In this document: one piece after another, positions 5,561-62,241 of the stretch
Position numbering within the stretch: the first letter of the stretch is position 1
Layout: every line of letters begins with the position of its first letter
Origin: Burkholderiales bacterium
Lineage (GTDB): Bacteria; Pseudomonadota; Gammaproteobacteria; Burkholderiales; Casimicrobiaceae
DNA length: 64,000 nt
Direction of reading: 5' to 3'
NCBI GenBank assembly: GCA_016790165.1
Contig: JAEUPL010000030.1
Coordinates: 1-64,000 of the forward strand
Notes under the pieces: model-generated
Databases searched by the model: none
What the model saw: only the letters and a program-made list of their open reading frames with translations
Told to the model about the DNA's origin: nothing
Translations under genes and position numbers: made by a program

Positions 5561-5680
5561 ACAGCTTTTTGGCCGCAACGACTGCTATCCGGTCGTTACA
5601 GTTGGAAATTCTGTAAAGTCGACTTTGTCAATTTTTCTGGCGTAACGACCATCCAGCGGTCGCAAATGCATAAAAGCTGC
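5561..5680. repeat. 120-bp palindromic element, copy A
   Basis: Between the divergent alaS and MFS genes. The left arm (60 bp) starts ACAGCTTTTTGGC, carries ACGAC...GGTCGTT (GGTCGTT at arm positions 31–37) and ends AAAGTC. The right arm is its inverted, imperfect copy ending AAAAGCTG. The dyad GTC|GAC sits exactly at 5620|5621. There is no coding potential of its own, and no target-site duplication is evident. The 345 bp between alaS and the MFS start otherwise holds nothing recognisable. Confidence 0.9.
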
Positions 5681-5764
5681 CTCTATCCACTGAGGTCAAC
5701 GTCGAGTCCATCCGCACCGCGCGAGCGAACCGCTCGCGACGCCGCGACAGTCGCTGCCGCCATA

Positions 5765-7147
5765 ATGGTGCACGTGGATCGCCCGCCTTCAGCCCCTGAC
5801 TCTTCGCCCGCGCGCAGCCACGTGGCCGCCAACGATTCCGCCGCCGACGACAGTGTCGTCTACGACACCCGCGTCGACGATGCTGCGCCGCCCGACGCAG
5901 CGGCCGGCCCGCCACCGGCGGCCCTGGGCCCGCTACCTCGCGAACTGTTTGTGCTCGTTGCGCTGCTGGTCATTGCTCACACCGCGCTGAACGGTATCCG
6001 CGTCGCCACGTCGCTGGCTGCCATCAAGGCCGGCGGCGGCGCGCTCTGGGTGGGCCTGCTGACGGCGATGTTCAACCTCGTGCCCGCATTTATCGCCATC
6101 CGCGTGGGCCGACTGGTGGACCGCGTTCCGCTGCGCCGCATGATGGTGGTGGGCTGCGTGGTCTCCGTCGCAGGTGGCCTGCTCGCTGCCCTCCTGCCGA
6201 TGCTCGGGATCCTCGCGTTCTCGGCCTGCGCGCTGGGCGTGGGCTGGATGATGGTGGCTGCGGCCGCACAGTACGCCGTGGGTTTGCTGGGTCACGTCGG
6301 CGTGCCCGCCGCCGCCACGAGCGAACAGAGCACGGCGCAGCTGGCCGCGCAACGCGCGGCGCACGTAGCGACCCAAAGGGTCAGGGCCTTCAGCGTGCTG
6401 GCGATGGGCTTCTCGCTGTCGGCATTTTTTGGGCCACTCATTGCAGGCTTCATGATCGATCACGTCAGCTTTCAGGCGGCGTTTGCGCTGCTCGCTGCGC
6501 TGCCGCTGATCCCGGCAGTCGCGTTTGCGCTCGGTCATCCGTTACTGCCCGCCGTGGAGCGACGCGAAACGCCGCCCGGTAACGGCGCACGCGAGTTGCT
6601 GGCCATGCCCTCGGTGCGCAACACGCTGATTTCGGCGTCGTTCATTACGGTGGGCTGGGATTTGTATGGCTTTATGGTGCCGGTGCTCGGCAGTGAGTTG
6701 ATGCTGACGGCAACACAGATCGGCTCGGTGATGTCGGTGTTTGCGGCGGCCGTGTTTGCCATTCGCTTTTTCATGGCGCGACTGACCCACCGCTATGGTG
6801 AAGTGGGCGTGATGGTGGGTGCCATGACCATTGCGGGGGTGACGTTTCTGGCGTTCGCGTTTGCGCACAGCTACGCGCTGATGCTCGTGCTGTCGTTCGC
6901 CATGGGCATCGGCCTTGGGGCGAGTCAGCCGATCGTGCTGTCGCTGCTGCACAACGTGTCGCCACCGGGGCGCATCGGCGAAGTGAACGGTATGCGCATG
7001 ACCATGATTTCCACCAGTCAGTGGACGATGCCACTCGTCTTCGGCTCGCTGTCGGCGTTCACGGGCCTCTTGCCGCTGTTCGTGGTAATCGGCGGCGGCA
7101 TCCTGGGCGGCAGCTGGTTCGCACGGCGAAATCTGCCGCGCGTGTAG
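5765..7147 (+). CDS. MFS transporter
   Basis: A 460-residue major facilitator superfamily permease of the inner membrane with about twelve transmembrane helices after an unusually long, disordered, Asp/Ala/Pro-rich N-terminal tail (about residues 1–55). The loop 2–3 signature region reads GRLVDRVPLRRMM. The substrate cannot be told; drug-efflux-like members are the nearest guess. The ATG at 5765 is chosen because the longer open frame upstream runs back through palindromic element A (5561–5680), which is not protein coding. It is divergent from alaS and not obviously in an operon with the VOC gene, which has its own promoter. Confidence 0.85.
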   Translation: MVHVDRPPSAPDSSPARSHVAANDSAADDSVVYDTRVDDAAPPDAAAGPPPAALGPLPRELFVLVALLVIAHTALNGIRVATSLAAIKAGGGALWVGLLTAMFNLVPAFIAIRVGRLVDRVPLRRMMVVGCVVSVAGGLLAALLPMLGILAFSACALGVGWMMVAAAAQYAVGLLGHVGVPAAATSEQSTAQLAAQRAAHVATQRVRAFSVLAMGFSLSAFFGPLIAGFMIDHVSFQAAFALLAALPLIPAVAFALGHPLLPAVERRETPPGNGARELLAMPSVRNTLISASFITVGWDLYGFMVPVLGSELMLTATQIGSVMSVFAAAVFAIRFFMARLTHRYGEVGVMVGAMTIAGVTFLAFAFAHSYALMLVLSFAMGIGLGASQPIVLSLLHNVSPPGRIGEVNGMRMTMISTSQWTMPLVFGSLSAFTGLLPLFVVIGGGILGGSWFARRNLPRV

Positions 7148-7172
7148 CGCCCGACGCGCGGCAGCGCACGGA

Positions 7173-7201
7173 TTGACAACTGTATTTGCATACACTATTC
7201 T
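7173..7201 (+). promoter_or_regulatory. sigma-70 promoter for the VOC–tag operon
   Basis: TTGACA (7173–7178), a 17-bp spacer, then TATTCT (7196–7201). This is a perfect −35 box and a good −10 box, 48 bp upstream of the ATG at 7249, right after the MFS stop codon. Confidence 0.7.
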
Positions 7202-7248
7202 CGCGGGCAGCGCAGCTCGCGCAACACGGCACAACAGTGAGGTGCGCC

Positions 7249-7689
7249 ATGCAGATCCCCCGAATGAGCATGATCACGCTCGGCGTTGCCGACCTTGATC
7301 GTTCGACAACGTTTTACGAACAGGTGCTCGCCACGCCGCCTGACAAGACGAACGATGGCGTCCGCTTCATCGAACTGCCGGGCGTGTGGCTGTGCCTGTA
7401 TCCGCTCGACAAGCTGGCGGAAGACGTGAAGCCCGGGCTGCCGGCTGCACGCGGCCCGTTTCCCGGATTCACCCTGGCGCATAACGCGCGGAGCGAGGAC
7501 GAGGTGCGGTCAATCTGCGAGCGAGCGCGTGCGGCGGGCGCCGCCATCCTGACTGAACCCGAGGCGACGTTCTGGGGCGGCTTTCATTGCTATTTCGCCG
7601 ACCCGGACGGTTACTACTGGGAGATTGCCTACGGCGAGATGTTTGACTTTGACGCGCATGGCGACATGCGCTGGAAGGCGGCGGAATGA
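7249..7689 (+). CDS. VOC/glyoxalase-superfamily protein
   Basis: A 146-residue vicinal-oxygen-chelate fold protein. It has the two beta-alpha-beta-beta-beta halves of the family, starting ITLGVADLDRSTTFYEQVL and closing FADPDGYYWEIAYGEMF, the usual C-terminal metal-site strand with Glu. Members include glyoxalases, dioxygenases and fosfomycin-type resistance proteins; the present substrate is unknown. The ATG at 7249 follows a GTGAGGTG Shine-Dalgarno-like stretch; an in-frame start 21 codons upstream lies inside the promoter region and is rejected. The stop overlaps the ATG of tag by four bases (ATGA), so the two genes are coupled. Confidence 0.88.
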   Translation: MQIPRMSMITLGVADLDRSTTFYEQVLATPPDKTNDGVRFIELPGVWLCLYPLDKLAEDVKPGLPAARGPFPGFTLAHNARSEDEVRSICERARAAGAAILTEPEATFWGGFHCYFADPDGYYWEIAYGEMFDFDAHGDMRWKAAE

Positions 7690-8378
7690 GCGCGCAGATG
7701 ACGAAAGCCGCGGTCAAACCCGCGGCGAAGCGGACGACGGGTGCCCCGGCAAAAGCCCCTGCGGCGCTCGCGACGTCCGACGGAAAAAACCGGTGCTTCT
7801 GGGCCACCGGCGTGCCCGACTTCTACGAGAAGTACCACGACGACGAGTGGGGCGTGCCGTGCTTTGACGAGCACAAGATGTTCGAGATGCTGATTCTCGA
7901 AGGCGCACAGGCGGGGCTGTCGTGGCAAACCGTGCTCGCGAAACGCGAGAACTATCGCCGTGCGTTCGATGGTTTCGACGTCGAAAAGATCGCCCGCTAC
8001 AAGGAAGCCAAGGTCCAGAAGCTGCTGCTCGACGCCGGCATCATCCGCAACCAGCTCAAAATTCGTGCCGCGATCACCAACGCGCAGGCGCTACTCGCGC
8101 TGCGTGAAACAGCGCCGCGGCCGGAACTGGCGCTGACGGATTTCTTCTGGCGATTTGTCGATGGTCGCCCGAAGCAAACCGCGCTCAAGCGCAAGGAAGA
8201 CATCAAGGCCACCACGCCGGAATCCGACGCGCTGTCAAAAGCGCTGGCCAAGGCGGGTTTCAAGTTTGTCGGCTCCACGATCGTCTACGCCCACATGCAG
8301 GCCTGCGGCATGGTCAACGATCACCTGACGAGCTGCTGGCGGTATGAGGCGGTGCGGGAGTTGGGGATGAAGCTCTAG
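7686..8378 (+). CDS. tag: DNA-3-methyladenine glycosylase I
   Basis: Removes 3-methyladenine from alkylated DNA in base-excision repair. After a 35-residue Ala/Lys-rich N-terminal extension comes the Tag core: RCFWA (zinc Cys), YHDDEWGVP (zinc His and the substrate-pocket region), GLSWQTVLAKRENYR, and the C-terminal YAHMQACGMVNDH with the last zinc His and Cys. Length is 230 residues against about 190 for the usual enzyme; the difference is the basic tail. The start overlaps the VOC stop codon. The stop codon (TAG, 8376–8378) lies within the left arm of a 12-bp inverted repeat (8375–8436). Confidence 0.95.
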   Translation: MSAQMTKAAVKPAAKRTTGAPAKAPAALATSDGKNRCFWATGVPDFYEKYHDDEWGVPCFDEHKMFEMLILEGAQAGLSWQTVLAKRENYRRAFDGFDVEKIARYKEAKVQKLLLDAGIIRNQLKIRAAITNAQALLALRETAPRPELALTDFFWRFVDGRPKQTALKRKEDIKATTPESDALSKALAKAGFKFVGSTIVYAHMQACGMVNDHLTSCWRYEAVRELGMKL

Positions 8379-8436
8379 GGAAACGCCGAGCAAGTCACAC
8401 GCGCACCTCGCGCAGACTGATTCAGCGTTTCCCTAG
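8375..8436. repeat. 12-bp inverted repeat spanning the tag stop codon
   Basis: CTAGGGAAACGC (8375–8386) and its perfect complement GCGTTTCCCTAG (8425–8436) enclose 38 bases. The tag stop codon is part of the left arm. It could be a structured terminator region (no U-run follows) or a small palindromic insertion; no second copy is seen in the window. Confidence 0.6.
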
Positions 8437-8451
8437 CTGGACTGACGACAG

Positions 8452-9341: not shown

Positions 9342-9356
9342 AGCTCGAAGGTGCCG

Positions 9357-18597: not shown

Positions 18598-21500
18598 CTA
18601 AGGCAAGAACGGCGTGGTCGGCAAGGTGCAGGCCACCGAAGTCAGGCCCACTGTTCCCAGGAGCTCTGTCGTCACACCCGCCGCAGGATGGTTCGCCGCC
18701 AGCACCGAAGCGGCGTTTGCCCCGGTGCCGAACAGGTTGGCTGTTGCGGCCCCGGCCTGGCGCACGCGCAGATCAAAACCACCACTGGCCGTGTTCGCGA
18801 GATTACCGGCGACATGGAGGCACGCCGTAGATGACTGTCTCGCTTGCACCACCAGCGCGTGAAGCGCGAGCGCGGGATCCGTCCAGGCCACCGAGTTGTT
18901 GAGCACGGTCGCGTGAAAATTCGGATTGGTGCTGGCGTCCGGCGTGTCCACCTGGAGCCCCCTCGCGGTGCCACCCGTGCTGTGCTGCGTGATGTTGTTG
19001 TCGTGGATATGCACGAAGCCGGGCGACGCTCCGCCGATGGTGCTTGTGAGGAACGCAATCACGGAGTGATTGGTCGCAGTCTGAGGCGTAGTGACCGTGT
19101 TGTTGCGGATGCGCGCATGCAACCTGGCTGCCGCAGTCGCGTTGCCCGCTGTCTGCCCCACGAAGATCGCAGTGCCGCCGAAGCCCGTCGTCGGCGAACC
19201 CGGAACCAGGTTGCTGTCAACATCGAGGAACAACTGTCCACTGGCGCCGTTCGAGAACACCACGCCCTCATTACCCTGCGTGGTCTTCGACCAGCGCGAG
19301 TTCTTCAACGTGAAATGAATGACGGACGATCCGTTCGCCGCAGCCTGGATCGCCTGCGACTTGTTGTCGTCAAACTGGCTGTTGTCCACCAGCACGCGCC
19401 CGACGGCCGTGTTTTGCAACTCCATCTGGATGCCGTCAGCACCACCCGTGCTGCTGTTGCTCTTGACGACGGTGCGGGTGATGGTCAGGCCAAAGTTGTT
19501 GTTCTGGCCGTAGATTTCTACGTTGTGTTCAATGCCGCCCGATATCCAGCTATCGGTGATGGCGTTACTCGCGCCGCTCAGGCCGTTGATGCCGGTGCCG
19601 GACACATCGAGTCTGCCGAAGACCAGCGGCGCGTCCTGGCCGCCTGTCGTGGCGCCGATGCTGCCGTCAATCACGCTGCGGTTCAGTGTGAAATTGCTGG
19701 TGTTGGTCGCGTAGATGCCAAAGTTGTGTGCACTCGTACCGGTAATCCGCATGCGCGTGAGCGACACGTTGGCGGTATTGTCGAGGCGAATCCCCGTGGC
19801 GGCATTCTGAATCGTGCCGCCGGTGCAATCAGCCGTCACCGGCGCGGTCGCGATCGTGTTCTTGTCGACCACGCTGCCGCCACAATTGCCAGACGAGTTC
19901 CCAGTCACGGTCAGTCCGCCGACACCCGTGCTACCCAGGTTGATGCCCGTGGTGGCACCATTAACGTTGATGCTCTGGAAGACCAGCCCGGACGCGGCAA
20001 TGGCAGTGCCCGAGACGTTGAGCGCGGTGCCCGTCGTGGTCGTGATGGTGTTGCCGGTGCCCTGAACGGTGATCGTTCCGCCGCCGGTCGCCACCAATCC
20101 GCCACCACTGGTCGCGGTGATGACGAGACCACCAACGCCGCTGGTTCCGGCGAGATAGCTGAACGAGCTGTTGGTGAAGTCGAGCGCGTTGCCGGTCGCA
20201 CCATTGGTTGTCATGTTGATCGTCAGTTCAGTCATGATGATGCCGGCCTTCCCGTTGGCGGTGACGCCTTTGTTCGCCCCCGCCGCAGGTCGCAGGTTGA
20301 GCCCGCGGATGTGGCTGAGCGTGTTCGCTGTCACCGTCGTGTGCACAGTCGGCGCCGTCAGGCCAATGCTCGGCCGTGCGGCCGACCCGGCGGGCGGCGT
20401 GATGCCGAACACCGCGTCAAAGCTCGCGGCCGTGACGCCCTGCCCGATGAAGGCGCCGCCGCTGTTGAGTGCGATGGAGGACGGCGTGGTGTAGTTGCCG
20501 CCGTCCATGATGAAGATATGCGAATTGGTGTTCGCGCCAATCGCTGCCACGGCGCCCGTCAGCGAGCAGGGGGTGTCGAGCGCGCAGATGGCGCCTGACC
20601 CGGACGAGTTCACAAAGTAGATTGCCGGGCCGGCCACGGTGAAGGTCACAGTCGCAGGGCTACTGGTCTGATAGTCCGGCGGGCCGTTCGGCGCAGGGCT
20701 TCCGTTGTCAGTGACGGTGTAGGTGAAAGAAACATCAGTGCCCGCTGCTGACGGGGGTGCCCTGAACGTAAAGCTGCCGTTCGCGTTGATGGTCAGACTA
20801 CAGTCAGTGCACACGCTGACCGGCGTCGTCACTACCGTCACCGTCGTGCCTGCCTCGGCGTCGGTGCCCGTGAGCGTGCCAGCCGGGTAGGTGATCGGAA
20901 TACCGGCCTGCGCCGCGAGTTTGCCGTTGGTCGCCGTCACGTAGGGTTTGGCCGTGGGTGGCGTGTTGGTAGCTACCAGGGTGACCGTCTTGGTGGCGAC
21001 CGTGCTCAGATTATTGACCGCACCACCATCGTTCACCTGGAAGGAAATCGTCCGGTTTCCGGCGACCGGATCGTGGGAGGTGTTGTAGAACGTGATACTA
21101 CGCAGCGCGGTCTGGTAATTGGCGAGCGTGGTAGTGCCCGTCAGCGTCAGTGTGCCGCTGAGATACGTTCCGCTGATGCCGTTTTGATCGGTGAAGCCCA
21201 AGACATCAGCGGCGGTCCCGCCAGCGGTGATGGTGATCGTTGCGCCGGTGAGCGTGGTGCTGTCCACGTCGGCCACGGTGAGCGCGGCGTCGACCGCCAC
21301 GCCAGAGCTCGCGAGAATGGCGGCGGTGCCTGAGGGCTCGGTGTAGGTGGTTGTGCCGCTCGAGGTGGTGACCACGGGCGCATCGTTCACCGCCGCCAAC
21401 GTCACCGTTTTCGTGGAGACGCCGCTCGTACCCGACAAGTTGCTCGCCTTGAACGTCACGGTACGCGGCAGCGTCGACGGGTTCTGCGAATTGTTGTTGT

Positions 21501-24500
21501 ACTGCACCGAACGCAGCGCCGCCTGATAGTTCGCGGCGGTGTCGGTACCCGTCAGCGTGAGCAAGCCCGTCGCGGCGGTGTAGGTGCCGGTGATCGTGCC
21601 GGTGTTGGTGAACAAGAGCGAATCTTCCGCGTTCGCGAGATTGCCGGTGATCTGCACGGTGGCGCCTGTGATCTGACCAGCGAGCACCGTGACGGTGACG
21701 CCGCTGTCAATGATGACCGGACCACCGTCTTCGGTGAACAGTGTCGTGCCGTTGGTGTTGGTGACCGTCGGCGGCGGCACCAGCACCGTGAGTGTGGCGC
21801 CGGTCGACGGCGCCGTGCCGGCAGCGTTGGTAAACACAGCGCGGTAACGCTTGCCGTCATCGGCCGCCGCTGCGGTGAACGACAGCGTGGTGCTCGTCGC
21901 CCCAGAAACAGGGGCCCAAGTGGTGCCGCCATCGGTGCTGACCTCCCACTGCACGGTAGGCGTCGGGTTGCCGCTGGCGCCTGCAGTGAACGTGGCCGTT
22001 GTGCCGACGTTCACACTCGCATTCGCAGGATTCGACGTGACCGACGGTGGCGTCGGTGCGGTAATCGTGACGGTACCTGTTGAGGTGCCGGACGCATTCT
22101 GAATCTTGTAGTCAAAGGTGACCGAGGATGTCAGGATCGGGCCCGCACCGAGCGAGAAGCTTCCGTCCGCGTTCACCTGTAGCGCACGTCCGCCTGCCGC
22201 AGCAAACGGCACGCTACTACCGGCGGCGTTATCGTTGACCGTACCACCGAGCGATCCACCGCCGAAGCTGACGAGCGTGGCGAGCTGCCAGCCAAGGTCG
22301 TCGTTCCCGAGCACGCCAGGCGCTGCGACGGTGATGGCCGGGGACAAGCCCAGATAGCCGCTGTCAGCGGCTGCGACCGGGGCCTTGGTGACATCGATAT
22401 GCACCGTCGCAGTCGAAGACGTGGCGCCGTTCGACAGCGTATAGTCGAACTCGACGTAACCCCAGAAGTTGGCGGGTACTGGCGACAGTGAAACGCCGCC
22501 CGCCGCCGTCGGGTAGAACAGCGCGACACTGCCGTCGTTGACCGGCGACGGCAACTGGACAAAGGTACTGGTTGAGAACGGCCCCGCATTCGTCACATTG
22601 ACCGGCGCACCGGATTTCCAGCCAACGACACGGATATTCGCGATGCCGGTGATGTCCCCCTGCGGGAAGCCACGCGTATCGTTATCCAGCGCACTAGGCG
22701 GCAAGGCATTGAAGGGGGCGCTGTTGAAGTGAAGCGTACCCATCGGCGTGCTGTAGGTATCGTTCACGGCCAGCACAGGCTGATTGACATTGATGGTCAC
22801 GGTCACCGCGCCAGAGGTGTCGACACCACCGTTCGCGGTACCGCCGTTGTCTTGCAGCACGAGATCAAACGTTGACGAGCCGCCGGCGTTTGCTGCCGGC
22901 GTGAATTGCAGGCGCCCCGTCGCTGTCACCAAGGGCGCGACGCTGAACAGCGCCGGGTTGCTCACGTTGGAAACGATGAAGGCGGCACTTTGCGTGGCCT
23001 CGTTGGCCGGACCCATGGTCACGCCGGTCGCCCAGGGTTGATCATAGGCGCCGGAATTCACCGCCACGGTGAGCGGATTGCTGCCGGGTACAAACGACGG
23101 GGGGTCGTTCACGCACACAACGTTGATCACAAAGGTCTGCCCCGGGCTGGTGTCGACACCGCCATTGGCGGTGCCGCCGTTGTCCTGCACCCGCAGCGTG
23201 ATGTTGGCCGTGCCGCAGGCGTTAAGCGCCGGCGTGTAAGCGAGCGTGCCGCTTGGCGTGACCGAAGGCACAACAGCAAACAGCGCAGGATTGCTGTTCG
23301 CGGTGACCTGGAAGGCAACCGTTTGTGCCGCTTCGCTGGCCGGACCGGCGCTGATTGACGTGGCCCAGTTGGCAACCGTCTGCGCGCCTGCGTCTTCGAA
23401 CACCGTCTGGTCAGCGCCCTTGGTGAAACTGGGAGCCTGATTGACGAAGGTGATGGTAATCGTGAAGGTCTGCCCTGCGCTGGTGTCGACCCCACCGTTG
23501 GCGACACCGCCGTCGTCACGCGCGGCGACCGTTACCGACGTGCTACCGAACACGTTCGGTGCGGGCGTGAACGTGAGTGTGCCGTTCGGCGCCACCGCGG
23601 GTGCGGCGGCGAACAACGCCGGATTGGTGATACCGGACACGACGAAGTTCACCACTTGGCCCGCTTCATCCGCGCCGCCGCCGGGGCCGATGCCCGTCGC
23701 CCAGTTCGCCTGACTGAAGGCCCCCGAATTCTCAGCGACCGTGATGTCGGCCCCTTTGGTGAACACCGGCGGATCGTTCACGCAAGCGACATTGATGACA
23801 AAGCTCTGATTGGCGCTGGTGTCGACACCTCCGTTGGCGGTGCCGCCGTTGTCCTTGATGTTCAGCGTAATCGTGGCGGTACCACAGGCATTTGCGGCCG
23901 TGGTGTAGGTGAGTACCCCCGACGACGATACCGCCGGTGCGGCAGAGAACAAGGTCGGGCTGCTATTGCCGACCACCTGGAACGTCACCGTTTGCGCGGC
24001 CTCGTTCGCCGGACCCGGACTGATCGCTGTGGCCCAACCATTGACCGTCTGCGCGCCGGCGTCTTCGAGCACATTCTGATTCGCCCCTATGACGAAGCTC
24101 GGCGCCTGATTGACGAACGTCACGTTGATGTTGAACGTCTGTGCGGCGCTGGTGTCCACGCCACCGTTAGCGGTGCCGCCGTTGTCCTTGAGCACCACGG
24201 TGATGGCCGCCGTGCCGGGCTGGTTCGTGGCGGGTGTAAACGTCAGCGTGCCGTCGGCAGCAATGGCAGGCGCGACACTGAACAGCGCCGGGTTGGTATT
24301 GCCGGTCACCTGGAAGGTCAGCGTCTGCCCCGATTCATCGGCCGGGCCTGCCGAAATTGCGGTGGCCCAGTTGGGGATGGTCTGCGCCGCTGCATTCTGC
24401 AGCACGGTGACGTCCGCTCCTTTAGTGAAGCTTGGCGCATCGTTCACTGGCGTCACGTTGATCGTCAGGGTTGACGCGGCGCTGGTGTCGACGCCCCCGT

Positions 24501-26499
24501 TCGCGGTACCGCCGTTGTCCTGCACGCGCACCGTGATGGTGGCGCTGCCGTTGGCGTTCGCGGCTGGCGTGAAGGTGAGTTGCCCGCTCGGGCTGATGGC
24601 GGGTTGGGTCGAGAACAACGCGCTGTTGGTATTGCCCGTCAGCTGGAACGACACTGTCTGCGTCGATTCACAGCTCGGGCCGGCGGAAATTGAGGTGGCC
24701 CAGGGCTGCGAGTACGCGCCCGAGTCTTCGAGAACCGTAACCGCTGCCCCGGCGGTGAAGCTGGGTGCCTGATTCACTGCGCCGACGACCAGCGACGCGT
24801 TCTGCGTCGCGTTGGGCGGCACACCATTGCCTGCGGTGAACGTGATGGGATACGTGCCGCGCGTACAGATGGCCGGCGTGCCTGCGAGCGACGCGGCGTT
24901 GCCGCTCGTCCACGAGAACGTCACGGCGCTGGGCAGCGTGCCCGACTGCGTGAAACTCGTAACGACGGGGGCGGCGTTCACCGTCGGCGCAAAGGTGAGC
25001 GCCTGCCCTTCGACCGCGTTGATCGTGGCCGCGCTGGTAAACGTGGGGGCAGCACCGACCTGCAGCGTGAAGGCCTGCGTGGCGTCAGGCGTCACGCCGT
25101 TGACCGCGTTCACGGTACAAACGTAGCTACCCGCCTGAGCTGCCGTCGGGTTTCCGGCCAGCGTGCCGCCACCGTTGCTATCCGTAGTGAAGGTGATGCT
25201 CGCGGGCAACGCGGGCGCACAGCCGGTGAGGCTGGCCGTGGGCGTCGGCATGCCGTTCGACGCAATGGTGAAACTGTTGGCCTGGCCCGGAATGAAGAGC
25301 GTGGTATTCGCGCTGGTGATCGCTGGCGCGCGGGTGTTGGTGATGCTGACCGTGGCGGTGGCCGAGTCCAGCGCGCCATCATTGACTTTGAAGGTAAAGC
25401 TGTCGCTCGCCGTGGCATTGCCATTCGGCGTGTAGGTCACGTTCGGCGCGGTACCGGCAAGCACACCCTGCGTCGGCTGCGTCAGCACGGTAAAGGTGAG
25501 CGCCGAGTTTTCGTAGTCGCTCCCGGTGAGGGTGATCGGCAGCGTTTCGCCCACTTTCGCCGTAACGCTTTGCGCGTTCGCGACTGGCGGTGCGTTGAGC
25601 ACGGTATCGATGCGGAAGAACATGGTGTTGTTTTCCAGCTTCGAATAAAAATCGGTGATGTCCATGCCGGCCGGCGCATCGCCGAGCGGATCCGTTGCGG
25701 CAGGCGATACACCCGTCCAGTCCGTAACCAGGCCATCGCGCACGATGGCGAGCAACTGCCCGGACATGGAGATCGCGAACGCGGCGACCACCACCATTTG
25801 CATGCCACCCCACCCGCGCCGACGGGCATACCAAAGCGAGCCCACGAGCAAAATCGCGGTCAGGAGCAGCGCAAAGCTGGCCAGCGTTGGCACCACCACA
25901 AAGGGTGGGGCATCGACCAGGATCGGCCCACCCGTCGCAGTCGCCGTCAGCGCGTCGGTACCGGAGAGGCCGTTGCTGCCGTCGCTGGTGATCGCGACGC
26001 GCATTTTCTGGCCCGTCGCAGGCAGCAGGAGCGCCGGCATATAGGTCTCGACGGCGGTAGCGCCGCCCGTGCCCATGCCGCGCGCCAACGGCGTCACGCC
26101 GTTGTCAATCGTGGTCGGCGCGCCGAACGAGCCGTTGTTGCAAGCTTGCAGCGTGATGGACTGGATTCGATAACCTGCGGCGTCCGTGGTCACCGTGGTC
26201 GACAGCATCTGCTCGATACCGGTAACCGCGCCATTCGCCGTGGTGACCGTGCAGCCCGTGCTGGTCACGTTGTCCGTATCGATCAGCGTGTTGATGGTGG
26301 TGGTTGCCGCTTGCGCCGCGCCCAGCATGCCAACGGCCAACAGGCCTGCTGTCAGCGCCTCCCGAAGGGCGCGGGCGTGCGCACGCCAGCCAGCGAAGCC
26401 GCGAGCGCGCGGCGCGCCGGTGTTGTCAGGGCGATGCGATGCAGATCGTGCTGCGTCGAATACGCCCCGGATAAGCCCATGGTCCACACCGGTCATCAT
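18598..26499 (-). CDS. giant exported Ig/cadherin-like and beta-helix protein
   Basis: A 2633-residue surface or secreted protein. A long N-terminal signal (hydrophobic core LTAGLLAVGMLGAAQAA, residues 49–65) leads into a small domain. Residues 203–228 (PTLASFALLLTAILLVG + ARRR) look like an IPTL-CTERM-type sorting/TM segment, but they are internal, and a second hydrophobic stretch follows at 234–253. Next come a cadherin-like domain (about 305–390), six 110-residue repeats (about 575–1238) alternating VNQAPSF and VND(A/P)P starts, further Big_9/Ig-like domains (about 1240–1960) and a right-handed beta-helix region from IYFVNSSGSG (about 1960) to the end. A role in adhesion or glycan contact is inferred from architecture. 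It leads the tail-collar operon. Confidence 0.88.
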   Translation of the reverse strand: MMTGVDHGLIRGVFDAARSASHRPDNTGAPRARGFAGWRAHARALREALTAGLLAVGMLGAAQAATTTINTLIDTDNVTSTGCTVTTANGAVTGIEQMLSTTVTTDAAGYRIQSITLQACNNGSFGAPTTIDNGVTPLARGMGTGGATAVETYMPALLLPATGQKMRVAITSDGSNGLSGTDALTATATGGPILVDAPPFVVVPTLASFALLLTAILLVGSLWYARRRGWGGMQMVVVAAFAISMSGQLLAIVRDGLVTDWTGVSPAATDPLGDAPAGMDITDFYSKLENNTMFFRIDTVLNAPPVANAQSVTAKVGETLPITLTGSDYENSALTFTVLTQPTQGVLAGTAPNVTYTPNGNATASDSFTFKVNDGALDSATATVSITNTRAPAITSANTTLFIPGQANSFTIASNGMPTPTASLTGCAPALPASITFTTDSNGGGTLAGNPTAAQAGSYVCTVNAVNGVTPDATQAFTLQVGAAPTFTSAATINAVEGQALTFAPTVNAAPVVTSFTQSGTLPSAVTFSWTSGNAASLAGTPAICTRGTYPITFTAGNGVPPNATQNASLVVGAVNQAPSFTAGAAVTVLEDSGAYSQPWATSISAGPSCESTQTVSFQLTGNTNSALFSTQPAISPSGQLTFTPAANANGSATITVRVQDNGGTANGGVDTSAASTLTINVTPVNDAPSFTKGADVTVLQNAAAQTIPNWATAISAGPADESGQTLTFQVTGNTNPALFSVAPAIAADGTLTFTPATNQPGTAAITVVLKDNGGTANGGVDTSAAQTFNINVTFVNQAPSFVIGANQNVLEDAGAQTVNGWATAISPGPANEAAQTVTFQVVGNSSPTLFSAAPAVSSSGVLTYTTAANACGTATITLNIKDNGGTANGGVDTSANQSFVINVACVNDPPVFTKGADITVAENSGAFSQANWATGIGPGGGADEAGQVVNFVVSGITNPALFAAAPAVAPNGTLTFTPAPNVFGSTSVTVAARDDGGVANGGVDTSAGQTFTITITFVNQAPSFTKGADQTVFEDAGAQTVANWATSISAGPASEAAQTVAFQVTANSNPALFAVVPSVTPSGTLAYTPALNACGTANITLRVQDNGGTANGGVDTSPGQTFVINVVCVNDPPSFVPGSNPLTVAVNSGAYDQPWATGVTMGPANEATQSAAFIVSNVSNPALFSVAPLVTATGRLQFTPAANAGGSSTFDLVLQDNGGTANGGVDTSGAVTVTINVNQPVLAVNDTYSTPMGTLHFNSAPFNALPPSALDNDTRGFPQGDITGIANIRVVGWKSGAPVNVTNAGPFSTSTFVQLPSPVNDGSVALFYPTAAGGVSLSPVPANFWGYVEFDYTLSNGATSSTATVHIDVTKAPVAAADSGYLGLSPAITVAAPGVLGNDDLGWQLATLVSFGGGSLGGTVNDNAAGSSVPFAAAGGRALQVNADGSFSLGAGPILTSSVTFDYKIQNASGTSTGTVTITAPTPPSVTSNPANASVNVGTTATFTAGASGNPTPTVQWEVSTDGGTTWAPVSGATSTTLSFTAAAADDGKRYRAVFTNAAGTAPSTGATLTVLVPPPTVTNTNGTTLFTEDGGPVIIDSGVTVTVLAGQITGATVQITGNLANAEDSLLFTNTGTITGTYTAATGLLTLTGTDTAANYQAALRSVQYNNNSQNPSTLPRTVTFKASNLSGTSGVSTKTVTLAAVNDAPVVTTSSGTTTYTEPSGTAAILASSGVAVDAALTVADVDSTTLTGATITITAGGTAADVLGFTDQNGISGTYLSGTLTLTGTTTLANYQTALRSITFYNTSHDPVAGNRTISFQVNDGGAVNNLSTVATKTVTLVATNTPPTAKPYVTATNGKLAAQAGIPITYPAGTLTGTDAEAGTTVTVVTTPVSVCTDCSLTINANGSFTFRAPPSAAGTDVSFTYTVTDNGSPAPNGPPDYQTSSPATVTFTVAGPAIYFVNSSGSGAICALDTPCSLTGAVAAIGANTNSHIFIMDGGNYTTPSSIALNSGGAFIGQGVTAASFDAVFGITPPAGSAARPSIGLTAPTVHTTVTANTLSHIRGLNLRPAAGANKGVTANGKAGIIMTELTINMTTNGATGNALDFTNSSFSYLAGTSGVGGLVITATSGGGLVATGGGTITVQGTGNTITTTTGTALNVSGTAIAASGLVFQSINVNGATTGINLGSTGVGGLTVTGNSSGNCGGSVVDKNTIATAPVTADCTGGTIQNAATGIRLDNTANVSLTRMRITGTSAHNFGIYATNTSNFTLNRSVIDGSIGATTGGQDAPLVFGRLDVSGTGINGLSGASNAITDSWISGGIEHNVEIYGQNNNFGLTITRTVVKSNSSTGGADGIQMELQNTAVGRVLVDNSQFDDNKSQAIQAAANGSSVIHFTLKNSRWSKTTQGNEGVVFSNGASGQLFLDVDSNLVPGSPTTGFGGTAIFVGQTAGNATAAARLHARIRNNTVTTPQTATNHSVIAFLTSTIGGASPGFVHIHDNNITQHSTGGTARGLQVDTPDASTNPNFHATVLNNSVAWTDPALALHALVVQARQSSTACLHVAGNLANTASGGFDLRVRQAGAATANLFGTGANAASVLAANHPAAGVTTELLGTVGLTSVACTLPTTPFLP

Positions 26500-26820: not shown

Positions 26821-26940
26821 ACAGCTTTTTTGCCGTATCGACCGTTGCCAGACGTTTGACTGGCAATTTTCTATAAAGTCGACTATGCGAATTTTCGCGA
26901 CAAAATCCGCACGGGTGAGCGGTACACGCAGAAAAGCTGT
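26821..26940. repeat. 120-bp palindromic element, copy B
   Basis: Ends are ACAGCTTTTTTGCC and its mirror AGAAAAGCTGT, exactly 120 bp apart, with the midpoint GTC|GAC at 26880|26881. The left arm keeps ATCGACCG at arm positions 17–24 and GACGTTT at 31–37; the right arm has diverged in the hairpin. It lies between the giant gene and the TauE/SafE permease, both on the minus strand. Confidence 0.88.
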
Positions 26941-36801: not shown

Positions 36802-36921
36802 ACAGCTTTTCGGCTCAAGTGACCGCTGCACGGACGTTCTATGCGTTAATTGTCGTATGTTGAGTTGCCGGATTTTTTGGCTGTGATGACCGATTGACGG
36901 TCGTTTGATGCAAAAAGCCAT
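36802..36921. repeat. 120-bp palindromic element, copy C
   Basis: Most diverged copy but still gap-free over 120 bp. The left arm starts ACAGCTTTTCGGC and has GTGACCGC and GGACGTT at arm positions 31–37. The right arm, read in reverse, has ATGGCTTTTTG, CGACCG at 19–24 and GGTC at 31–34, ending ACTC at the midpoint; the central C|G has become T|G, so the TC|GAC dyad is lost. It lies between the convergent aminotransferase and delta-60 genes. Confidence 0.78.
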
Positions 36922-36984: not shown

Positions 36985-38478
36985 CTACGGCACGAGCGAC
37001 ATTCCGCACTGCGTCATGAAGTAGTCGCGAAGCTGCGGCCACGTCGTGCGCGTGGCGTTGGCGGAAAAGCTGATGCCGCCCACCACCGCGCTGCCTGTCA
37101 TGCCAAGCAACACACGCGCCAGAACGAGCCCGTCGGTGGTGGCACGCATCACGCCATCGCCGTCGAAGTCCGGTTTGCAATTTTGGTAGCCAAACGGCCC
37201 GCCCTCGTAGCGCGCGAGGCAAAAGTCACGATCGGCTCCGTTCAAGCAATAGCCCGCTATCACGATCTTGCCATCGGGTTGGAGCGCGAGGGCGGAGGCG
37301 GTGTCGTAGTCACTGCCGATCGGGGTGATGACCTTGCCACTCACGCCAAAACCGGTGTCGATAGCGCCGCTGGATTCGTAACGCGCGAGGCAGAAATCAT
37401 CGTTGGCGACGTTCGCGCAATACCCCGCCAACACGATCTTGCCATCGGGCTGTATCGCGAGGCCTGCAGCACGGTCAGTGCTGCCACCGATCGGGGTGAT
37501 GACCATGCCAGTGCCGTTGAAGCGGGTGTCGAGGCTGCCGTTGCTTTGGTAGCGCGCGATGCAAAAGTCAGCGATCCCGCCATTGATGCAATACCCCGCC
37601 ACCACAATCCTGCCGTCGGGTTGGAGCGCGAGGGCGGTTGCGTTGTCGTTGTTAGGTCCGATAGCGGTCATGACTTTGCCGCCTGCGCCAAAAGCACTGT
37701 CGAGGCTGCCGTTGGTCTGGTAGCGTGCGAGACAGAAGTCGTAGTTGCTGCCATTGAGGCAATACCCCGCCAACACGATCTTGCCGTCGGGCTGAAGGGC
37801 GAGGCCGGTGGCACGGTCAGCGCTGCTGCCGATCGGGGTGATGACCATGCCGGTGCCGTTGAAGCTGGTGTCGAGGCTGCCGTTGCTTTGGTAGCGGGCC
37901 ACGCAGAAGTCATCGGTGAGCCCGGTCCCGCAATGCCCCGCCGCCACGATCTTGCCATCGGGCTGGAGCGCAAGGGCGGTGGCGCTGTCGGTAGCGCCCC
38001 CGATGGCGGTGATGACTTTGCCGCCGGAGCCAAAACTGCTGTCGAGGCTACCGTTGCTCAGGTACCGCGCGAGGCAGAAATCATCGTTGCTGCCGCCAAA
38101 ACACGTGCCCGCCACCACGACCTTTTCGTCAGGCTGGAGCACAATGGCATGGGCGTAGTCGCCGTTGCTGCTGATGCCGGTGATGACCTTGCCACCTGCG
38201 CCAAAGGCGGTGTCGAGGCTGCCGTTGCTGGTGTAGCGCGCAAGGCAGAAGTCATAGGTGCTGCCGTTGGGGCAATACCCCGCCACGACGATCTTGCCGT
38301 CGGGCTGCAGCAAGAGGGCACGGGCGTAGTCGTCGCCGCTTCCGATGCCCGTCATCACCTTGCCGAAGCCAGAGCCAAACCCGGCCGTGTCAAGGTCACC
38401 CGGCGCCGCCTGCGCGGCGATGGCAAACGTTGCGCCAGTCAAGGCGGCGATAAGGGTGCGAAGGTGGGGCGCAAGCAT
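36985..38478 (-). CDS. exported delta-60 repeat protein with dockerin-like C-terminus
   Basis: A 497-residue secreted protein. The signal peptide covers about residues 1–25 (LIAALTGATFAIAAQAA). Seven consecutive 57-residue delta-60 repeats (about 43–435; core LQPDGKIVVAGYC...DFCLARY) would fit a seven-bladed beta-propeller; each repeat carries two cysteines. The last 65 residues start NCKPDFDGDGVMRATTDG, a calcium-loop/dockerin-like motif, and end TQCGMSLVP. GGGAGA eight bases before the ATG supports the start. The same C-terminal module occurs in the protein at 50152–53235. Function unknown. Confidence 0.85.
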   Translation of the reverse strand: MLAPHLRTLIAALTGATFAIAAQAAPGDLDTAGFGSGFGKVMTGIGSGDDYARALLLQPDGKIVVAGYCPNGSTYDFCLARYTSNGSLDTAFGAGGKVITGISSNGDYAHAIVLQPDEKVVVAGTCFGGSNDDFCLARYLSNGSLDSSFGSGGKVITAIGGATDSATALALQPDGKIVAAGHCGTGLTDDFCVARYQSNGSLDTSFNGTGMVITPIGSSADRATGLALQPDGKIVLAGYCLNGSNYDFCLARYQTNGSLDSAFGAGGKVMTAIGPNNDNATALALQPDGRIVVAGYCINGGIADFCIARYQSNGSLDTRFNGTGMVITPIGGSTDRAAGLAIQPDGKIVLAGYCANVANDDFCLARYESSGAIDTGFGVSGKVITPIGSDYDTASALALQPDGKIVIAGYCLNGADRDFCLARYEGGPFGYQNCKPDFDGDGVMRATTDGLVLARVLLGMTGSAVVGGISFSANATRTTWPQLRDYFMTQCGMSLVP

Positions 38479-47830: not shown

Positions 47831-47950
47831 TCAGCTTTGAGTGCCGACCGACCGCTGGACGGTCGTTGTGGCTCAATTTTTTTCCAACTCGACAATACGA
47901 AATTCATCGATGCAAGGCTTATCTGCAAGTCGATTGGACCAAAAAGCTGT
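47831..47950. repeat. 120-bp palindromic element, copy D
   Basis: Left end TCAGCTTTGAG, right end CCAAAAAGCTGT, exactly 120 bp apart; the midpoint CTC|GAC falls at 47890|47891. The left arm has a well-kept hairpin GACCG-ctgga-CGGTC with GGTCGTT at positions 31–37; the right arm keeps ATCGAC but has lost the second half of its hairpin. It lies between the ankyrin gene and the SDR gene, both plus strand. Confidence 0.88.
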
Positions 47951-57643: not shown

Positions 57644-57646
57644 GTA

Positions 57647-57821
57647 AACCCAAATTTCCCATTAGCCGGCCTTCGGCCTACGCGAACGCTGTCGGCGCAT
57701 TCGGGCGCATCTTGGGCGCAATTTTTTTCGCCGTAGCCCCGCTACGACTCAAAGAATTGCGCCCAACCTGCATCCCGACTGCATCCGACACCGTTTCGCG
57801 TCCTAATGGGAACTTTGGGTT
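57647..57821. repeat. 175-bp nested palindrome between secA and argJ
   Basis: Outer 19-bp arms AACCCAAATTTCCCATTAG and CTAATGGGAACTTTGGGTT match at 18 of 19 positions. Inside these are CGCGAACGCTGTCGG against CCGACACCGTTTCGCG, then a perfect 12-bp pair TTGGGCGCAATT (57712–57723) / AATTGCGCCCAA (57755–57766), and at the apex CGTAGC-ccc-GCTACG. The whole block therefore folds into one long hairpin with a small side stem CCGGCC-ttc-GGCC. It starts 26 bp beyond the secA stop and is followed by the terminator. Confidence 0.85.
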
Positions 57822-57847
57822 GAATTATGCGATGCCGGAAGTAGCGG

Positions 57848-60571
57848 TCAGTCCAGACGCCCGTGGCAATGCTTGTACTTCTTGCCGGACCCGCACCAGC
57901 AGGGATCGTTGCGCCCGAGCTTCGGCCCCTGATTGACGACCGGTTGGCTACCGCTGCCGCTGGCTGCCGGTGCGGGCGATGCTTCGCCAGTAAGGCCATC
58001 GACGCCCGCGTGCTGATAGGCCACATTTTGCGTCGCGGCATGCGGCTCCACCGCCTGAGCGTCCGCCTCACTACGCACCTGCACCGTCAGCAAAATGCGG
58101 ACCACGTCACCGCGAAAGCGATCGAGCATCTGCCCGAACATCTCGAACGACTCGCGCTTGTATTCCTGCTTCGGGTTCTTCTGCGCGTAGCCGCGCAGGT
58201 GGATGCCCTGGCGCAGCAGATCGAGATTCGACAGATGCTCGCGCCACTGCGTATCCATGATCTGCAGCAGAATATTGCGCTCGAACTGACTGAAGACATC
58301 GTCGCCGGCGACTTTTCGCTTGCTGTCGTAGGCCTCAAGCGCGGCGGACTTGCAGCGTTCACGGATGTCGGCGTCGTCGAGATCGGGCGTCGCCTTTTGC
58401 CACTCGCTGATGCTGACGGGAACGTGAACATCGTGCAGCGCAGCTTCGAGCCCCGTGACATCCCATTGCTCCTCAGTGCTCTCTGGCGCCACGTGCACGT
58501 TGACGGTGTCTTCGACCCAGCCGCCGATCATGTCGCGCACGGTGTCGCTGACGTTGGCATGCTCCAGTAAATGGTTGCGCTGTTCGTAGATGGCCCTGCG
58601 CTGGTCGTTGGCAACGTCGTCGTACTCAAGCAGTTGCTTGCGGATGTCGAAGTTGCGGGATTCAACCTTCAGTTGCGCCTTCTCGATCTGGCGCGTCATG
58701 ATGCCCGCTTCGATCGGCTCGCCGTCGGGAATGCGCAGGCGCGTCATGATGTTCTTCATGCGATCGCCACCGAAGATGCGAATCAGCGGGTCTTCAGCGG
58801 AGAGGTAGAAGCGGCTGGAGCCAGCATCCCCCTGTCGACCGGCACGGCCGCGCAACTGGTTGTCGATACGGCGCGATTCGTGACGTTCGGTGCCGACAAT
58901 GCGCAGCCCGCCTGATCCCAGCACTTCCTCGTGGCGCTTCTTCCACTCAGCTTCAACGGATTCCATCTTCGCCTTGCGTACTTCCGGCGTGAGCGACTCG
59001 TCCTCGCGGATCGCGCGCAGTTCGGGCTCCAGGGCGCCACCGAGGACGATGTCGGTACCACGGCCTGCCATGTTGGTGGCAATGGTGATCATCTTCGGCT
59101 GACCGGCCTGAGCGACGATGTGCGCCTCGCGCTCATGCTGCTTGGCGTTCAACACCTGATGCGGCAGCTTCTCCTTGGTCAGCATCGCCGCGATCAATTC
59201 GGAATTCTCGATCGATGTCGTGCCGACCAGTACCGGTTGGCCACGGTTGTAGCAGTCGCGAATGTCGTGTACGGCCGCTGCGTACTTTTCCGCCGTGGTC
59301 TTGAAGAAGAGATCGTTCTCGTCACGTCGAACCATGTCGCGGTGCGTCGGGATGATCACCGTTTCCAGGTTGTAGATCTGCTGGAATTCGTAGGCCTCGG
59401 TATCGGCCGTACCGGTCATCCCCGCAAGCTTGCCGTACATGCGGAAATAGTTCTGGAACGTGATCGACGCCAACGTCTGGTTTTCGCGCTGGATCGGCAC
59501 GCCTTCCTTGGCTTCGACCGCCTGATGCAGGCCGTCACTCCAGCGCCGACCGGACATGAGACGACCGGTGAATTCGTCGACGATGACGACTTCGCCATCC
59601 TGGACCACGTAATGTTCATCGCGGTTGTAAAGCGCGTGCGCCCGGAGTGCCGCGTACACGTGGTGCATCAGCGAAATGTTCGCTGCGTCGTAAAGACTGG
59701 AGCCAGACGGCAGCATGCCCATCTGCTCGAGCAGTTTCTCTGCGCGTTCGTGGCCTTCTTCGGAGAGATAGACCTGTCGGCCCTTCTCGTCGACGTGATA
59801 GTCACCGGCGGATTTTTCGTCGGCCTGGCGCGTGAGCTTCGGCGCGAGTTCGTTGATCTTGTAATAGATCTCGACGTTGTCGTCGGCCTGGCCGGAGATG
59901 ATGAGCGGCGTGCGCGCTTCGTCGATCAGGATCGAATCCACTTCGTCGACGATGGCGTAGTTGAGCCCGCGTTGACGGCGATCCGCGACCGCGTACTCCA
60001 TGTTGTCGCGCAGATAATCGAAACCGTACTCGTTGTTGGTGCCGTAAGTGATGTCAGCCGCGTAGGCGGCGATCTTCGAGGCATTGTCCTGTTGCGACAG
60101 AATGGTGCCGACACTCATGCCGAGGAAGCGGTAAATGCGCCCCATCCAGTCGGCGTCGCGCTTGGCAAGGTAGTCGTTGACGGTAACCACGTGCACGCCC
60201 TTGCCTGCCAGCGCATTGAGGTACACCGGCAGTGTCGCCATCAACGTTTTACCTTCGCCGGTGCGCATCTCGGCAATCTTGCCCTGATGCAGCGCCATGC
60301 CGCCGATCAATTGCACGTCAAAGTGACGCATCGCGAGCACGCGAATGCCGGCCTCACGAACGACAGCAAACGCTTCGGGAAGCAACGCGTCGAGCGTTTC
60401 GCCATTGGAGACGCGCTGTTTGAACTCGGTCGTCTTGCCGCGTAGCTCGTCGTCGGAGAGGGATTTCAGGCCCGCTTCCAGCGCATTGATCTTTTGAACC
60501 TGTGCGCGGTATTGCTTGAGCAGCCGATCATTACGACTGCCGAAAATTGTTTTTAGAAATTTATCAATCAT
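57848..60571 (-). CDS. secA: preprotein translocase ATPase SecA
   Basis: The motor of the Sec export pathway, 907 residues. Motifs: Walker A region [48 protein letters not shown] and [13 protein letters not shown]; the C-terminus [19 protein letters not shown] is the zinc-binding SecB/ribosome contact. The start [14 protein letters not shown] is standard. It is preceded on the same strand by the M23 peptidase gene (166-bp gap) and followed by the 175-bp palindrome and terminator. Confidence 0.98.
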
Positions 60572-60737
60572 GAGCTAGGCCACCTTGGCCGCGGGACGAA
60601 AGCAGGGACGCACAGGGTGCGGATGTGACAATGCCCGCAGGCGCGTACCGGCACAAAAGCCAGCACACGCCGAAGCGGGCGAAACCTTGGATTTTATGCC
60701 GACGGGCCCACCGCCCGTTCGGGCGCGGTGCCGCAGA

Positions 60738-61649
60738 TCAGTTAACCGCGAGGAAGCGGGCGGGGTTTTGCGGCACGCCGTTGAGGCGCACTTCGAAATG
60801 CAGATGGGGGCCGGTTGAACGGCCCGTCGAGCCGACACGCGAAATGCGCTGGCCGCGCACGACGAGGTCGCCCTCCTTGACCAGCAACTCGGAGCCGTGC
60901 GCGTAGCGGGTGACCAGGCCGTTGCCGTGATCAATTTCCACGGACTTGCCGTAGGCGGGATGAAAGTCTGCATAAATCACTTTGCCGCTTGCCGCGGCGT
61001 GAATCTCGGTGCCCGTCTCGGCGGCGAAGTCCACGCCTTCGTGGAACGTCTGGTGGCCGGTGAACGGGTCAATCCTGTATCCGAAGTTCGAGGTGTAATT
61101 GACGGTTTCAATCGGTGGCAGCGTGGGCAGGAACTTGCGCTGTGCGCTGCCCTCCACCAGAAGCGCTTCGAGCACCGTCAGTTGGTCGGCCTTGACGTCA
61201 GCCTTGCGGGCGATTTCGCCGAGCTGCCGTGCAAATTCGTCGAACGACAGCGGTGCGCCCGGCGTGGCGGCGCCGCCGCGACCGCTGTTTGCCGTGGCGC
61301 TTGGCAGTTCCTGCGGCTTCAGGCCGGCCACTTTGGCGAGCTTCTCGCCGAGCCCATCCAGTCGCATCATGTGCGCCTGCACTTCGCCGAGCTTGACGGC
61401 GAGGTTATTGATGTTGTCCTGAATCTGCTGCTGGCGCTGCTTGGCCTCCGCGTGCTGGTCGGCCAGCAGAATGCCGCGAATGAGCGGATCATTGCTGGTC
61501 ACGGCATATTTCAGCGACAGGTAGTTGGCCAGAGTCGCCGTCAGCCCGAGTGCGACCAGCGCCAGCGCGGCCAAGCCGATGACCTGCGGAATGCCAACGT
61601 GAATCGTCCGCTTGCTCCGAAAATCGCTCGATACAACGATAATTTGCAC
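60738..61649 (-). CDS. M23-family peptidoglycan peptidase
   Basis: A 303-residue inner-membrane-anchored LytM-type protein. TM helix at about 21–43, then a coiled-coil stretch (about 58–105), then the M23 domain: NFGYRIDPFTGHQTFHEGVD (zinc His and Asp), HGNGLVTRYAHGSEL and STGPHLHFEVRLNG (HxH). It is either an endopeptidase or a LytM activator of amidases. The start is GTG at 61649 with GAGG eight bases before it; the frame extends upstream without homology. Its start codon abuts that of the divergent dciA gene in the palindrome CACGTG. Confidence 0.88.
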   Translation of the reverse strand: MQIIVVSSDFRSKRTIHVGIPQVIGLAALALVALGLTATLANYLSLKYAVTSNDPLIRGILLADQHAEAKQRQQQIQDNINNLAVKLGEVQAHMMRLDGLGEKLAKVAGLKPQELPSATANSGRGGAATPGAPLSFDEFARQLGEIARKADVKADQLTVLEALLVEGSAQRKFLPTLPPIETVNYTSNFGYRIDPFTGHQTFHEGVDFAAETGTEIHAAASGKVIYADFHPAYGKSVEIDHGNGLVTRYAHGSELLVKEGDLVVRGQRISRVGSTGRSTGPHLHFEVRLNGVPQNPARFLAVN

Positions 61650-62117
61650 GTGCAAAACCTCAAATCGCGGCGCTTCGCCCCAGCGCTCTATCCTCGTCCT
61701 CTGGGTCTGGCCCAGTTCTTTGATCGCATGCCCGCTTTTGGCGCGGCGCTGCGACATGCCCGCGAAGGCAGCCGTCAATACCAGTGGTTGATGGAGGCAG
61801 TGCCGCAGCGTCTGGCGCGCTTTGTGGTGGCAATGGCAGCCTCAGGCTCAACCGTGGTACTTACGGTGGATTCGCCAGAAGCGGCGCATCTGGCCCGACT
61901 GCTGGGCCGCGACATGCTCGCGAATCTTCACCGCAAGGGGGGGAAATTTAGCGAAATTTCGGTGCGTACGCAATCCAAACCGGTGCCTCGGCGTCTACCG
62001 AAAACCTTGCCCAGCGCCACAAGTCAGCGCGACATGAGTGCTGTAGCTAGCCGCATGAAGAGTGAGCGCATGCAAACTAGTTTGGCGCGGCTGGCAAAGA
62101 CCATTGCGGATCGTTAG
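61650..62117 (+). CDS. dciA: DUF721/DciA family protein
   Basis: A 155-residue protein of the DUF721 family: LMEAVPQRLARFVVAMAASG and EAAHLARLLGRDMLANLHRK are the conserved core. DciA helps to load the replicative helicase DnaB in bacteria without DnaC. The start is inferred to be GTG at 61650, since homology seems to begin in the stretch before Met27 (RPLGLAQFFDRMPAFGAAL); ATG 61728 is the alternative. It sits between lpxC and the M23–secA genes, as in other betaproteobacteria. Its stop is four bases before element E. Confidence 0.78.
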   Translation: MQNLKSRRFAPALYPRPLGLAQFFDRMPAFGAALRHAREGSRQYQWLMEAVPQRLARFVVAMAASGSTVVLTVDSPEAAHLARLLGRDMLANLHRKGGKFSEISVRTQSKPVPRRLPKTLPSATSQRDMSAVASRMKSERMQTSLARLAKTIADR

Positions 62118-62121
62118 CTGT

Positions 62122-62241
62122 ACAGCTTTTTAGCCCGATCGACCGATCCGTGGTCGTTCAAGCCATTTTTATCAGTGAGTCGACTCGGGTGATTTTTCAC
62201 AGCAAACGACCAGTGGGCGGTCGATAGAACCAAAAAGCTGT
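62122..62241. repeat. 120-bp palindromic element, copy E
   Basis: The best-kept copy. Ends ACAGCTTTTTAGCCC and its mirror CCAAAAAGCTGT are perfect over the first ten bases; midpoint GTC|GAC at 62181|62182. Both arms carry ATCGACCG at positions 17–24 and GGTCGTT at 31–37. It begins four bases after the dciA stop and ends exactly one base before the lpxC stop codon (62242–62244), filling the convergent junction. Confidence 0.93.

Follow-up and report, generated by a model that had tools for sequence, protein, structure and literature searches.

A 64,000-nucleotide stretch of DNA from a Burkholderiales bacterium of the family Casimicrobiaceae (assembly GCA_016790165.1, contig JAEUPL010000030.1, positions 1 to 64,000; hereafter the window) carries five copies of a 120-bp dyad-symmetric element, all between genes. 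A first-pass annotation of the window had reported the five copies as exactly 120 bp long and alignable without gaps, with a shared terminal motif and with TC/GAC at the midpoint of all but copy C (the slash marks the dyad), and re-reading of the sequences agreed with each of these statements. The copies, and the gene that adjoins the last of them, are as follows.

Copy A, 5561..5680, strand not applicable: 120-bp dyad-symmetric element in a divergent gap.
Copy B, 26821..26940, strand not applicable: 120-bp element in a tandem gap.
Copy C, 36802..36921, strand not applicable: 120-bp element in a convergent gap, its centre altered to GTT/GAG.
Copy D, 47831..47950, strand not applicable: 120-bp element in a tandem gap.
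Copy E, 62122..62241, strand not applicable: 120-bp element immediately past the lpxC stop codon.
lpxC, 62242-63315, minus strand: adjoins copy E.

The dyad centre reads GTC/GAC in copies A, B and E, CTC/GAC in D and GTT/GAG in C, and arm-to-arm identity from A to E is 37, 29, 30, 27 and 34 of 60. The five copies were made into a sequence-only profile, which matches exactly those five places in the window, as expected by construction (E 5e-19 to 3e-25), and gives at least 150 strand hits at about 75 places, all with E < 1e-11, in the genome to which the window belongs (G000; 3.76 Mb in 41 contigs). In this genome scan, which the first-pass annotation had proposed, the matches are far above chance. 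A refined profile identified 63 copies in 862 kb of G000 and added none beyond those of the first profile. Three long contig stretches amounting to 722 kb hold 50 copies, from which a copy number of about 260 per genome is extrapolated; the 722 kb comprise whole or near-whole contig runs, some other G000 stretches having been picked around known hits. Without any profile, GCTTTT...AAAAGC pairs are found 18 times in 464 kb at a spacing of 120 bp, no other distance between 20 and 300 bp accounting for more than one pair; with looser ends there are 26 pairs at 120 bp, three at 130 bp and no more than two at other distances from 100 to 140 bp. A model-free palindromicity scan was dropped as too noisy, 16 loci of unrelated named genomes also lying above the shuffled null.

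Conservation along the arm is confined to blocks: AYRGCTTTT (positions 1-9), A.CGAC (17-22), CGGTCGTT (30-37), AWWTT (46-50) and AAGTC (56-60), separated by positions that mostly carry 0.05-0.6 bits, with positions 24 and 26 somewhat higher (40 exact copies). The inner boxes are conserved to the same degree as the ends in the G000 copies, and the information per element, 80-102 bits in five species (relatives within the genus are, like G000, designated by G numbers), is concentrated in the boxes. The geometry is nearly fixed. Among the 63 copies in G000, 54 are exactly 120 bp long, four are 119, two are 121, one is 129 and two are 130, so the fixed length of the first five copies largely held as more were added. 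In five genomes the end box lies within 1 bp of the species' usual distance to the centre in 304 of 330 arms (taken out of 342, the others being excluded where the centre was weak or a contig edge intervened), and 18 of the 330 have no recognisable end box. The only recurrent larger length step is +10 bp, one helical turn, in four arms (three in G000, one in G005); of the remaining four off-distance arms, two belong to a single mis-centred element, one to a half-element and one to what is apparently a spurious match. AT content along the arms has power at 10-10.75 bp (p 0.001-0.006 by position permutation), and AT-step phasing at 10.25 bp, a period picked after a first period scan and a value to which the boxes contribute, is 1.91, 1.36 and 1.75 in G000, G005 and G015 compared with 0.97, 0.90 and 0.93 after shuffling of the arms. 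Few arm matches lie outside full-length elements: G000 has none, and G008, G005, G012 and G015 have them at one or two places each, some being truncated elements.

Three elements of 129-130 bp lie within 10 kb of one another on contig C12 of G000 (127019, 129937 and 136561) and are perhaps related. Each has 10 extra bp between the end box and the inner box of one arm, and the first two carry a similar insert. A 130-bp copy of the same kind is present in G005 (G005:C1:899428).

The elements are almost exclusively intergenic: among full copies that have a gene on either side (166 in six genomes), 165 lie between genes, an overlap of up to 60 bp being allowed with our own gene calls. The G000 copies occupy 39 tandem, 13 convergent and 11 divergent gaps, where all junctions number 491, 109 and 106, respectively. 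Their median distance is 29 bp from 3' ends versus 118 bp from 5' ends (p 1.4e-6), and within tandem gaps 26 of the 39 copies are closer to the 3' end (p 0.053). They are also spaced more evenly than chance in all five genomes tested, at mean distances of 7.7-14.2 kb. Relative to a null in which gaps of 130 bp or more are picked at random, the coefficient of variation of the spacing is 0.674 in G000 (null 0.942, p 0.0047), 0.585 in G005 (0.927, p 0.0020), 0.478 in G012 (0.891, p 0.0003), 0.496 in G015 (0.879, p 0.0017) and 0.588 in G008 (0.825, p 0.021). The 77 best places in the complete genome of G005 do not depart from a uniform distribution over the chromosome (chi-square p 0.56); by plain count, four lie in the ninth that faces ParB (located at 38 kb), where 8.6 are expected.

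The copies look like independent draws from one profile, without genealogy. Pairwise identity among the 54 exact copies has a mean of 66.7 of 120 and a maximum of 81, and independent draws from the profile give 66.9 and 81.7. No covariation was detected in the same 54 copies, either between the arms of a copy (complementarity 0.5315 versus 0.5357 with arms re-dealt) or within an arm (inner stem paired 0.699 versus 0.699), and a set of 40 copies gave the same outcome for identity and covariation. As a positive control, 18 repetitive extragenic palindrome (REP) hairpins of G000 pair at 0.963 versus 0.933, a value reached in 0 of 5000 permutations. The absence of covariation in the elements, together with the positive REP control, therefore indicates that their symmetry stems from conserved boxes read in the duplex. 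The CGACCG...CGGTCGTT feature described as a hairpin in the first-pass annotation thus stands as a conserved symmetric motif of G000, but as a hairpin it does not, since its base pairs do not covary and its sequence differs in related species.

Matches to the five-copy profile are present in 10 of the 16 other members of the genus and in none of 23 genomes outside it. A profile derived from G005 has matches in 16 of the 17 genus members, all but G016, and under stricter filters in none of 147 genomes from the rest of the order. A pattern that ignores the inner boxes (CTTT-N48/49-GTCGA-N49/50-AAAG) gives forward counts of 152 in G000, 141 in G001, 104 in G003, 35 in G004, 151 in G005, 121 in G006, 151 in G008, 212 in G012, 115 in G013 and 169 in G015, six in G009 and at most two in each of the six remaining members. 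It occurs no more than once per strand in 83 genomes outside the genus, and the reversed control gives 0-2. Diverged palindromes were seen by eye or at weak scores in G002, G007, G011 and G014. The five-copy model had no hits in the 23 recA-matched loci searched out of 80, a set into which conserved peptides had drawn distant species, and viral contigs contained no exact match to the strict element pattern. In a tree of LpxC from 16 of the 17 genus members (G006 had no match), rooted at its midpoint only, G009 and G016 fall together, as do the nine canonical species. The genomes of G009 and G016, about 2.5 Mb each, have about a dozen places and none, respectively, and no match to a Y1 transposase.

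Where gene junctions are kept between G000 and its relatives, the elements tend to be kept as well. Comparison with G005, G008, G012, G013 and G015 found 10 junctions filled in both genomes, one filled in G000 only (in the comparison with G013), three filled in the relative only and 118 filled in neither, or 159 in neither once three relatives without a profile of their own are included (Fisher p 1e-11 for the five relatives and 6e-13 with the three more, the comparisons being treated as independent). Two of the three relative-only cases are a single junction with a half-element in both G005 and G008. At this junction (G000:C12:79250-79708) each of the two carries a single arm of about 63-70 bp with its own inner-box type, and none was seen in G000. 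Downstream of lpxC, the position of copy E, G003 and G012 have scoring elements (E < 1e-3) and G013 and G005 weakly scoring ones, and in G015, G001, G011 and G014 elements were recognized by eye; none was seen in G008. Seven of the 10 orthologous pairs were aligned and have 52-75 of 120 positions in common, so the filler has turned over while the place and the boxes have been kept.

With partial copies included, the species profiles yielded 32 copies for G005 (400 kb), 22 for G012 (200 kb) and 24 for G015 (200 kb). The ends and the centre are common to the species and the inner boxes differ: they read CGACC...CGGTCGTT (type I) in G000, G008 and G003 (two copies read in G003) and roughly CCNCATT...TGGGCT (type II) in G005 and G012, and G015 has the inner boxes GACCATTGCATAGGGGCTA with 59-bp arms. 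Type I is on both arms of 58 of 63 copies in G000 and 24 of 28 in G008, and type II on both arms of 24 of 29 copies in G005 and 14 of 20 in G012. A rule of one type per species was dropped because hybrids and minority types occur; G012 has strong type-I copies and G000 a few that are type-II-like. Nor does the LpxC tree unite the type-I species in one clade: it needs two changes, and only 14% of bootstrap trees place these species on one side of a branch. By eye, the R1 hit that scores best in G005 (L021) is a different local repeat.

These elements are probably duplex, dyad-symmetric sites for a putative oligomeric protein that spans or wraps 120 bp and is likely to organise the chromosome. 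Recognition in the duplex with a fixed helical geometry is well supported by the sequence comparisons, whereas the protein, the wrapping and the architectural role are what we infer from them; a genome-wide architectural element is the sole role offered in the first-pass annotation that survives. A symmetric oligomer would contact the end box AYRGCTTTT, the inner boxes at about 17-24 and 30-37, the AT box at 46-50 and the centre AGTC/GACT along one helix, or would wrap the DNA, such that only whole turns could be tolerated as insertions. Sites in intergenic gaps averaging 8-14 kb apart may then anchor or make chromosome domains, and the even, intergenic, chromosome-wide placement suggests chromosome organisation over single-gene control. 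A change in the protein may have been followed by a change of the inner boxes at most sites, with the hybrids possibly representing intermediates. More tentatively, most species of the genus might possess up to several hundred wrapping sites for one putative protein, a sparse, sequence-addressed chromatin with a site per ~10 kb, its code having drifted at most sites while the places were kept; this broader picture is possible rather than probable.

Several observations weigh against the proposal of an architectural wrapping site. The helical signal is not clean: G000, G008 and G015 have their best AT period at 9.75 bp but G005 and G012 at 7.75 bp, and the conservation of the boxes itself contributes. 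Nearness to 3' ends could be plain avoidance of promoters, and the evidence of even spacing depends on gene calls made by us and on samples of 21-47 spacings in each genome. Inner-box types are mixed within species (for example at L020 and L036 of G012). The system is not universal in the genus, G016 being without elements and other members having few or diverged ones. Among candidate binders, ParB shows no expansion and MatP is absent in the 30 genomes searched for each, so neither offers a lead.

If the architectural proposal is true, these genomes possess a bacterial system of architectural sites that is unusual in length, information content and regularity, and that would make it possible to test directly whether bacterial chromosome domains are set by defined DNA sites; the position-matched sites of several species would moreover show a protein-DNA code changing across a whole set of sites. 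Even with another role, the elements would be non-mobile, non-RNA palindromes of fixed geometry that fall outside the REPIN, ERIC/MITE, attC and Rfam classes with which they were compared.

Four other explanations were weighed. The elements may be strong sites for DNA gyrase, with the palindrome positioning the gyrase wrap and cleavage taking place near the dyad, about every 10 kb near 3' ends, where transcription heaps up positive supercoils. This merits testing because the gyrase motif of Escherichia coli has a similar length, symmetry and phasing, and the elements are indeed close to 3' ends, but it is unlikely: the E. coli motif is, by its description, degenerate whereas the element boxes are sharp (80-102 bits), and DNA gyrase is general to bacteria whereas the elements are confined to one genus among the genomes searched and differ between its species.

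It is similarly improbable that the elements serve as operators for an ordinary global regulator of transcription with a drifted specificity. Sharp duplex boxes, and inner boxes that drift together at sites of conserved position, would be expected of operators, but the copies are not concentrated upstream of genes, as the median distances above attest, and 13 of 63 are in convergent gaps. The 120-bp length and the even spacing are also unusual for operators.

An old non-autonomous mobile element resembling a miniature inverted-repeat transposable element (MITE) or a REPIN, which has ceased to move or persists as a quasi-species shaped by selection on transposition, has little probability. The inverted arms and many intergenic copies would suit it, as would the presence of Y1 transposases in 15 of the 17 genus members and a copy number that ranges within the genus from none (G016) to hundreds. 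However, the copies have no genealogy, their positions are kept, their spacing is even and their inner boxes are as conserved as their ends, whereas the REPs of G000 itself are near-identical (mean 87%) and have compensatory changes. The suggestion of a non-autonomous mobile element in the first-pass annotation is further weakened by the finding that 10 of 11 comparable sites are filled at the same junction in a relative, and no target duplication was seen by eye in the flanks of the G000 copies inspected.

An RNA element (a bidirectional terminator, mRNA stabiliser or processing site) is very improbable, and the terminator and the symmetric hairpins of the first-pass annotation are not supported: folding as RNA is stronger than in shuffled sequences for copies A, B, D and E (z -6.8, -4.0, -2.3 and -5.5) and the elements are near 3' ends, but copy C folds no better (z -1.0), such folding is suggestive alone and is accounted for by the symmetric conserved boxes, the pairs are uncompensated whereas those of the REPs clearly covary, Rfam 15 has no match at gathering score in the window, the T run of the outer stem sits on the 5' side, opposite to that of an intrinsic terminator, and 11 of 63 copies are in divergent gaps.

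The window also contains a RAYT-like Y1 transposase gene with flanking GTAG-type REP hairpins (1191-1225, 1243-1764, 1783-1817 and 1921-1955), and a second Y1 gene of G000 is located at C7:97470. In 862 kb of G000 there are 18 GTAG-type REPs at E < 0.001, several of them in inverted pairs about 85 bp long. A link between RAYT and the 120-bp elements was considered, as Y1 genes are common in the genus, and was rejected for the window, whose RAYT goes with this separate REP family, in agreement with the earlier statement that the elements are unrelated to it. Two other features of the window are a 2633-amino-acid open reading frame (18598-26499) with 333-bp internal repeats and a signal-like, membrane-spanning start, and an open reading frame on the minus strand (36985-38478) that contains 171-bp repeats, six in tandem, and seems to encode a repeat protein.

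No description of such 120-bp palindromes was found in the open-access literature, where one under another genus name is possible, and the open-access literature on 'Casimicrobium' contained nothing relevant to the elements. As far as the listings of the wider open-access repeat literature go, they name known families only. No match to a known family emerged, with no Rfam match in the window and a distinct REP family there.

Among known systems, the REPINs and REP-RAYT systems resemble the elements in having two inverted arms, an intergenic location and many copies, and REPINs persist vertically, which is a further likeness. As described, REPINs have invariant 16-mers, common compensatory changes in stems and a random extragenic distribution (PMC3116915). 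The elements differ in their even spacing and in the absence, in 54 copies, of stem pairs held by compensatory changes, and the REPs of G000 are a separate family. ERIC/IRU (127 bp), CIR (about 110 bp), RUP and RPE are likewise intergenic and palindromic at ~100-150 bp, and ERIC, CIR, RUP and RPE are presented either as repeats of a mobile type, having target duplications or TA ends, or as repeats that fold as RNA (PMC2229807). The elements are set apart by kept positions, by the lack of covariation and by pairwise identities that are those of independent draws rather than of descent from recent transposition. Integron attC sites have the core ends RYYYAAC and GTTRRRY on a folded strand; the ends of the elements are AYRGCTTTT...AAAAGCYRT and their arms do not covary. 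Nor are they arranged like an intrinsic terminator, which is confined to 3' ends and has its T run after the stem.

As published, the gyrase motif of E. coli spans 130 bp, is symmetric about the cleavage site and has a GC periodicity of ~10.75 bp on both flanks, and is degenerate (PMC6379681). It is like the elements in its length of ~120-130 bp, its symmetry and, in part, its ~10-bp phasing, the best AT period of the elements being 7.75 bp in two of five genomes, but it is a pattern of composition whereas the elements possess sharp, genus-specific boxes. The sites known as parS and matS and those of Noc and SlmA are sequence-specific duplex sites scattered over the chromosome; they are short and fewer per genome, whereas the elements are 120-bp composites of which G000 possesses about 260 by extrapolation. 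What is new in these elements, with a function that we infer, is the combination of features that sets them apart from the known families as those families are described.

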